Assembly (NCBI RefSeq): GCF_001261735.1
Contig: NZ_CVRP01000006.1
Location: forward strand, 186,001 to 250,000
Source: Dysgonomonas sp. BGC7
GTDB taxonomy: Bacteria > Bacteroidota > Bacteroidia > Bacteroidales > Dysgonomonadaceae
Direction of reading: 5' to 3'
Length of the DNA stretch: 64,000 nt
The notes beneath the pieces are model-generated. The model saw only the letters and a program-made list of their open reading frames with translations. It searched no databases and was not told the origin of the DNA. Below are positions 32,567-32,618 of the stretch, piece by piece. The position numbers were made by a program, and so were the translations under genes. The stretch's first letter is position 1; each line of letters opens with the position of its first letter.

Positions 32567-32618
32567 CTCTCTCTCTCTCTCTCTCTCTCTCTCTCTCTCT
32601 CTCTCTCTCTCTCTCTCT
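32567..32618. repeat. Perfect (CT/AG)26 dinucleotide tract
   Basis: There are 52 uninterrupted bases of CT on the plus strand, AG in the sense of susC transcription. It lies 187 bases upstream of the first susC gene and 52 bases upstream of the stem-loop. No other simple repeat of this length occurs in the window. Tracts of this type and length commonly change unit number by replication slippage. Confidence 0.97.

Follow-up and report, generated by a model that had tools for sequence, protein, structure and literature searches.

DNA inversion is the usual explanation for surface variation in Bacteroidales, and the invertible promoters of Bacteroides are a source of random variation of surface loci in this order. 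In the pyrBI operon of E. coli, a ribosome translating across the terminator prevents the terminator from forming, an outcome governed by UTP. At the pil1 locus of Streptococcus gallolyticus, GCAGA repeats in a leader-peptide gene shift its stop codon into or past a terminator, raising transcription, and according to the accessible part of the article mutants of the start codon and of the terminator established this mechanism (Danne et al. 2014, PMC3894217). The long 5′ UTRs of B. thetaiotaomicron hold short ORFs resembling leader peptides, with no repeats mentioned in the available text of that study (PMC7366714). Our search of the Bacteroidota literature returned no report of such a mechanism among the matches listed, most subscription papers lying outside its coverage, and no paper was found on Dysgonomonas together with dinucleotide repeats or phase variation.

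Measured against pil1, a locus of Dysgonomonas sp. BGC7, situated in the 64,000-nt stretch of contig NZ_CVRP01000006.1 that was analyzed here (the window), carries a tract-bearing leader ORF, a dinucleotide repeat unit, a terminator-like stem-loop and both kinds of reading frame. From the features described below, we consider it likely that slippage at the AG tract of this locus makes the leader cistron phase-variable, by way of translation-dependent antitermination.

The AG tract and its operon

A sequence-only reading of the window had pointed to an uninterrupted dinucleotide tract in front of a double SusCD operon, and both are real. TRF reports a perfect period-2 array at 32566–32618 (26.5 copies, 100% matches), in which an exact 52-base (CT)26 occupies 32567–32618 of the plus strand, a tract length far beyond chance. 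By Pfam, a SusC-like transporter followed by a SusD-like protein occurs twice downstream, with two Plug-domain and two SusD_RagB proteins. The tract had been placed 187 bases from the first susC; its location before this gene stands, and the distance to the ATG (32380, minus strand) is 186 bases when counted. Overlooked at that stage were a uORF around the tract (32444–32698) and a strong hairpin between the tract and susC. The features of the locus, all on the minus strand, are as follows:

32618–32698, minus strand: conserved leader-peptide block M...IFS-DNL-VS-ILL, directly before the tract (genus-wide multi-copy block, HMM)
32566–32618, minus strand: AG tract, (AG)26, coding for poly-Glu-Arg, presumed slippage site (TRF, sequence)
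32444–32698, minus strand: uORF or leader cistron in the present frame, 84 aa, MYTKAKSIADIKAIFSTDNLAVSYILL(ER)n...MILSNN*, crossing the hairpin (translation, frame counts)
About 32459–32519, minus strand: hairpin of about 28 pairs, then a T-rich tail; candidate premature terminator (folding, terminator scan)
29489–32380, minus strand: first SusC-like TonB-dependent transporter, 963 aa, presumed target of the switch (Pfam Plug PF07715 only)
27695–29476, minus strand: first SusD-like protein, 593 aa (PF07980, PF14322)
24445–27669, minus strand: second SusC-like transporter, 1074 aa (PF07715, PF13715)
22582–24432, minus strand: second SusD-like protein, 616 aa (PF07980, PF14322)
21083–22543, minus strand: F5/8 type C / Ig-like protein (PF00754, PF02368)

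On this strand the tract lies within the uORF and not in a promoter. The leader peptide matches the family HMM with E 2.2e-12, the window sequence being itself a row of the model. Between the tract and susC, the hairpin received a terminator-like flag on the sense strand, and the 185-nt leader as a whole folds with a z of −5.3; none of the 17 matches of Rfam 15 to window positions 32200–33300 reached the gathering score. The first SusC has a Plug domain without a CarbopepD_reg match in Pfam, and is a member of a cluster of 51 similar proteins encoded downstream of such tracts. Judging from spacing and strand, the F5/8 type C / Ig-like gene is probably the last gene of the operon. On the other side of the leader, the upstream gene at 33292–34470 reads by eye like aminopeptidase C, and the inverted repeat with T-rich and A-rich flanks directly after it (33218–33279) is probably its terminator.

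A leader-peptide cassette dispersed in the genus

The tract does not stand alone: by comparison with other genomes, it is one member of a multi-copy family. In DNA searches, the block before the tract, and not the repeat alone, was found dispersed in the genus, with any match in 18 of 25 genomes. A motif that includes the first AG units occurs at 128 places in 17 of these genomes (1 to 18 per matching genome, and five in the genome of the window), while the reversed motif, used as a control, had zero matches in the same 25. Without the tract, the motif again matched 17 of the 25, and the control gave single matches in two genomes. At the family level, 21 of 101 genomes, belonging to 4 of 15 genera, carry the motif. 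The 77 named stretches are from Dysgonomonas, from 'Dysgonamonadaceae' MAGs, from one 'Bacteroidia bacterium' or from entries titled Prevotella (MAGs except 10(H)), and a search of plasmids with the leader gave no match. Across the order, a strict AG pattern was found in 4 of 393 genomes, namely three Dysgonomonas and G129, which is also the only one of the three genomes of its own family to have the peptide. Outside G129 and the window's family (149 genomes), the best HMM match was in G221 (E 4.5e-5) and the next had E 0.002, matches with E above 0.001 being treated as chance.

Long AG tracts go together with this motif. All five AG tracts of at least 16 nt in the whole genome of the window (4.32 Mb) lie at matches of one motif, and in G000, G001, G003 and G019, compared by eye, 36 of 36 AG tracts of at least nine units coincide with it. 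Tracts of this length are present in 17 of the 25 genus genomes; seven of the eight genomes without the motif have none, and the eighth, G013, has one. This distribution, together with the constraint on the coding frame and on the frames after the tract described below, argues against a neutral microsatellite, in which AG runs would grow by slippage from any seed and have no effect. Such growth would account for the AG tracts of at least nine units that have no motif match in other genomes (e.g. G004:C15:206099 and G005:C13:184001), and for two tracts of 229 and 312 nt in G019 that resemble runaway expansion, but overall we find it very hard to credit.

Judged from its reading frames, the conserved block is coding. 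We parsed 130 distinct motif hits and removed six false ones by eye, keeping 124; the six are absent from the hairpin, frame and residue counts and are still contained in the codirectionality, RYT and promoter-motif counts and in the first frame analysis, and since related sites were counted together, the counts are inflated. Between −46 and +26, frame 0 has no stop in 116 of 119 sites, compared with 40 and 0 of 119 for the other two frames, and an in-frame ATG is found at −80 to −25 in 110 of 119. The consensus of the family peptide, M...IFSxENLxVSxILL(ER)n, is represented by 124 distinct copies in Dysgonomonas and relatives. Residue replacements in it are conservative: over the 124 sites, variation is by amino-acid type, with an invariant L, V/I/L at 101/15/4 and I/V/F at 90/24/5. 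In 108 of the 130 parsed hits, the tract is immediately preceded by RYT, by which Leu-Leu is kept (TTR, YTA). Exceptions are L053, with a stop inside the peptide motif, and certain tracts that have decayed. The ortholog of the window's susC in G016 (L206) is preceded by an apparently decayed leader motif with four substitutions, no AG tract and no scored hairpin.

The leader peptide is shared by two families with different codons. Conservation of this kind would be expected if the uORF encoded a functional small protein or a sensing or arrest peptide, with stalling at ENLxVSxILL and the repeat length as a by-product. Nearly fixed synonymous positions in the block (TTG, GTT) fit such a peptide as well, and hint at an extra role at the nucleotide level that a frame switch does not explain. 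A peptide of this type leaves unexplained, however, both the frame layout after the tract and the same layout behind a different-looking peptide in G007 (see below). We therefore regard it as an unlikely explanation of the cassette, while the conserved leader peptide of a phase-variable cistron may act on the ribosome too.

Scans for the vegetative Bacteroidetes promoter consensus (TTTG, TAnnTTTG, as given in the available part of PMC7366714) detected the motif 60–200 nt upstream of the motif core in 41% of cases against 11% in shuffles; for control genes, the figures within 500 nt were 44% against 26%. The −7 box is mostly found 70–140 nt ahead of the core. Inside the block (10% versus 10% in shuffles) and after the tract (16% versus 17%), the promoter motif is no more frequent than by chance, and the window's own promoter falls below the consensus threshold used. 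Three other candidates were rejected during this work. That the block is itself a promoter and transcription starts at the tract was rejected on the basis of the promoter scans and the frame analysis. An ops-like recruitment site (RfaH/NusG-type), considered for GGnnGTTAGC, which we take to resemble ops loosely, was abandoned after the block proved coding. A stand-alone sRNA gene consisting of promoter, tract and terminator fits poorly with the direction of the next ORF, which has the same orientation in 108 of 114 scorable hits (16 of the 130 hits have no next ORF), and with the lack of promoter-motif enrichment behind the tract.

Hairpins, reading frames and tract lengths

A strong hairpin lies between the tract and the gene in 68 of 101 leaders, compared with 15 of 110 regions upstream of control genes and one of nine orthologous genes without the cassette; by the score used, about a third of the leaders have no strong hairpin. 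Among 71 scored hairpins, the following eight bases include five or more T in 43 cases, and the preceding eight include five A in 20. The hairpin and frame counts omit leaders that contain N, are too short or have no codirectional gene, which leaves 100 to 102.

Because AG repeats are stop-free in every frame, the frame on exit from the tract depends on how many units it has. The hairpin is within reach of one or more frames in 68 of the 70 hairpin-bearing leaders, against 31.6 expected when the stretch before the hairpin is shuffled. A frame that stops before the hairpin is present in all 70, as it is in shuffles (68.4), and the two kinds occur together in 68 of 70 (29.9 expected). Early stops are close to the tract, within 12 nt in 51 of 70 leaders (38.5 expected). 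Across the 93 leaders of a separate count, the longest frame has a median of 147 nt, compared with 68 in shuffles, and the shortest 5 nt, compared with 10. The frame present in the assemblies reaches the hairpin in 44 of 70 leaders, a weak excess over the 34 expected. The longest frame ends at most 20 nt from the main ATG in only 11 of the 70 Dysgonomonas hairpin leaders, with an exact ATGA in 2, so coupling is not general in this set. In the window, the present frame and the one obtained with one unit less pass the hairpin, whereas one unit more leads to a stop 6 nt after the tract. Two of the three frames are thus ON-like, and from this layout we predict ON for the present length, ON for one unit less and OFF for one unit more.

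These frame counts bear on a further possibility, namely that the tract adjusts expression simply as DNA or RNA, through promoter spacing or mRNA stability or structure, with the frame being irrelevant. Variation of tract length between related sites would suit such tuning, as would the AG strand being the motif strand in the parsed hits and the next ORF being mostly codirectional. Against it stand the lack of promoter-motif enrichment within the element and in the stretch from tract to gene, a block before the tract that is open in one frame only, and post-tract frames that are strongly unlike shuffles; we judge it improbable. Gradual tuning by unit number from a plain leader, as the sequence-only reading had envisaged, is not supported: the anatomy of the leader, with its ORF and terminator-like hairpin, predicts a frame switch whose state would recur with every third unit. 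Phase variation itself, which had also been proposed, remains the best reading, and tract length differs among orthologous and duplicated sites.

These length differences are between species and paralogs. The tract of the window measures 53 nt and that of its D. hofstadii ortholog (G001) 63 nt. In one orthologous susC group the tracts are 5, 17, 36, 43, 59 and 74 nt long, the 17-nt tract coming from a MAG, where tract lengths are distrusted. Tandem duplicates in G003, a PacBio assembly judging from 'quiver' in its title, have tracts of 45 and 59 nt between flanks that match perfectly over 100 bases upstream and at 94 of 100 positions downstream, and six tracts of this genome range from 45 to 64 nt. 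In G019, which consists of one contig, 15 of 18 tracts measure 39–73 nt and the others 11, 229 and 312 nt; two of its tracts abut N runs, so this assembly is not gapless. The two longest, L048 (312 nt) and L055 (229 nt), are far beyond the usual 40–70 nt. Another site of this genome, L050, has the same 26-base core and a 64-nt tract within flanks that are only partly alike (41/50 and 24/50 bases). Unit numbers from short-read assemblies may be wrong: 13 of 17 tracts in the MAG G005 are 14–21 nt long, and we suspect assembler collapse, which makes ON/OFF calls from single assemblies tentative.

As for the downstream genes, 51 of their products form one SusC-like cluster, the largest group of targets. 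Ten other downstream proteins examined with Pfam include two Fib_succ_major proteins, two ECF sigma factors and one NusG-like protein, and seven further ones, two of them from G129, are mostly of exported type. Cassettes precede ECF sigma-factor genes at L055 and L066 (Pfam) and at L087 (by likeness to L055), and a NusG-like gene at L128; at these sites the switch could act on regulators. In G019, two cassettes of opposite orientation, L041 and L050 (contig C1, about 2624362 and 2629071), flank an ORF of 1367 aa.

Recurrence in other genomes and comparison with known systems

In G129, a genome from another family of the order, this leader-peptide family is represented 25 times with an E of at most 1e-4. 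An AG tract of 9–25 nt is present in all 20 sites that were fetched (L240–L259), a TAnnTTTG box lies 65–83 nt before the peptide match in 19 of them, and many precede ORFs of more than 900 aa; the two main ORFs tested encode FG-GAP proteins of 1115 and 1238 aa. Exactly one frame reaches a conserved inverted repeat in 15 of 16 scorable sites, and two frames do so in the other. Shuffled sequences fold about as well as this inverted repeat (z −0.6). Of 18 sites, 16 have an open frame that runs up to, overlaps or enters the main ORF, 5 of them with an exact ATGA; in the remaining two it ends 2 and 76 nt short of this ORF. By this layout, the G129 copies look like a phase-variable surface repertoire.

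A second case comes from G007, a genus member without the AG cassette, which has 12 AC tracts of at least nine units (L265–L276, 22–26 nt); the other 24 genomes have none or one each. The peptide before (AC)n looks different from that of the AG cassette. Nevertheless, two frames stop within 26 nt in all 12 tracts, and the third is open for 412–959 nt in ten of them, L270 and L273 reaching an N run or the end of the stretch unstopped. At four of the tracts, the end of the open frame forms an exact ATGA overlap with a VTIG- or VKIG-type protein gene. A frame started by ATG enters the tract in 11 of 12. The assembled frame gets through, i.e. is the open frame in G007 or reaches the inverted repeat in G129, in 1 of 11 scorable copies and 2 of 16 copies, respectively, as if few members were on at a time. 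The G007 leaders share repeated sequence and those of G129 are alike, so they are not independent events.

From the open uORF frame, the tract, the hairpin, the frame layout, their recurrence and the length differences between related sites, all of which are observed, we infer translation of the uORF in the cell, slippage, antitermination and an effect on expression. In the proposed phase-variable leader cistron, the transcript would begin upstream of the cistron, and a ribosome would translate the conserved short peptide (...IFSxENLxVSxILL) before entering (AG)n. The tract would be read as Glu-Arg in any frame and never stop the ribosome, its units setting the exit frame. In an OFF frame, the ribosome would stop soon after the tract, allowing the hairpin to fold and transcription to end before susC. 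In an ON frame, it would enter or cross the hairpin, so that no hairpin is formed and transcription continues; at certain sites, translation would bring it to an ATGA shared with the main start codon. Every operon behind such a copy would then be switched randomly and independently of the others.

A wider proposal is that Bacteroidales carry a dedicated class of phase-variable leader cistrons before many surface operons, that their nutrient-uptake and adhesin repertoire is made up of switches thrown randomly and independently, and that the slipping repeat has been exchanged (AG or AC) between species; we hold this to be about evenly balanced. It points to a second route of surface variation in Bacteroidales, besides DNA inversion. 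If true, glycan uptake and adhesion in Dysgonomonas would be decided partly cell by cell, and the mechanism of two Streptococcus pilus loci would recur as a many-locus set in another phylum. Leader genes of this kind are small and repetitive and hard to catch: the two leader ORFs compared with Pfam and NCBIfam had sub-threshold matches only, mostly to the low-complexity run, and several contigs terminate in or near the tract.

As described in the available text on S. gallolyticus (PMC3894217), pil1 and pil3 have in common with the AG cassette a repeat in a short leader ORF of a surface operon, and the pil1 unit, like the one here, is not a multiple of three (GCAGA there, AG here). In pil1 a frameshift moves the leader stop into or past the stem-loop, the longer peptide being the ON state, and the leaders studied here appear to have the same layout. 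That system belongs to a Firmicute with two pilus loci and was proven with mutants. The likeness is one of anatomy; the repeat units differ, and we claim no homology to the pil1 leader at the sequence level. Unlike pil1 as presented there, the AG/AC cassette is found in Bacteroidales, has a conserved leader peptide, occurs at 1 to 18 places per matching Dysgonomonas genome, has SusC as its largest target group and shows ATGA coupling to the main gene at some sites. With E. coli pyrBI it would share translation of a leader through an attenuator, but here the repeat number would set the state. Compared with the invertible promoters of Bacteroides, the proposed switch is a microsatellite inside an ORF.
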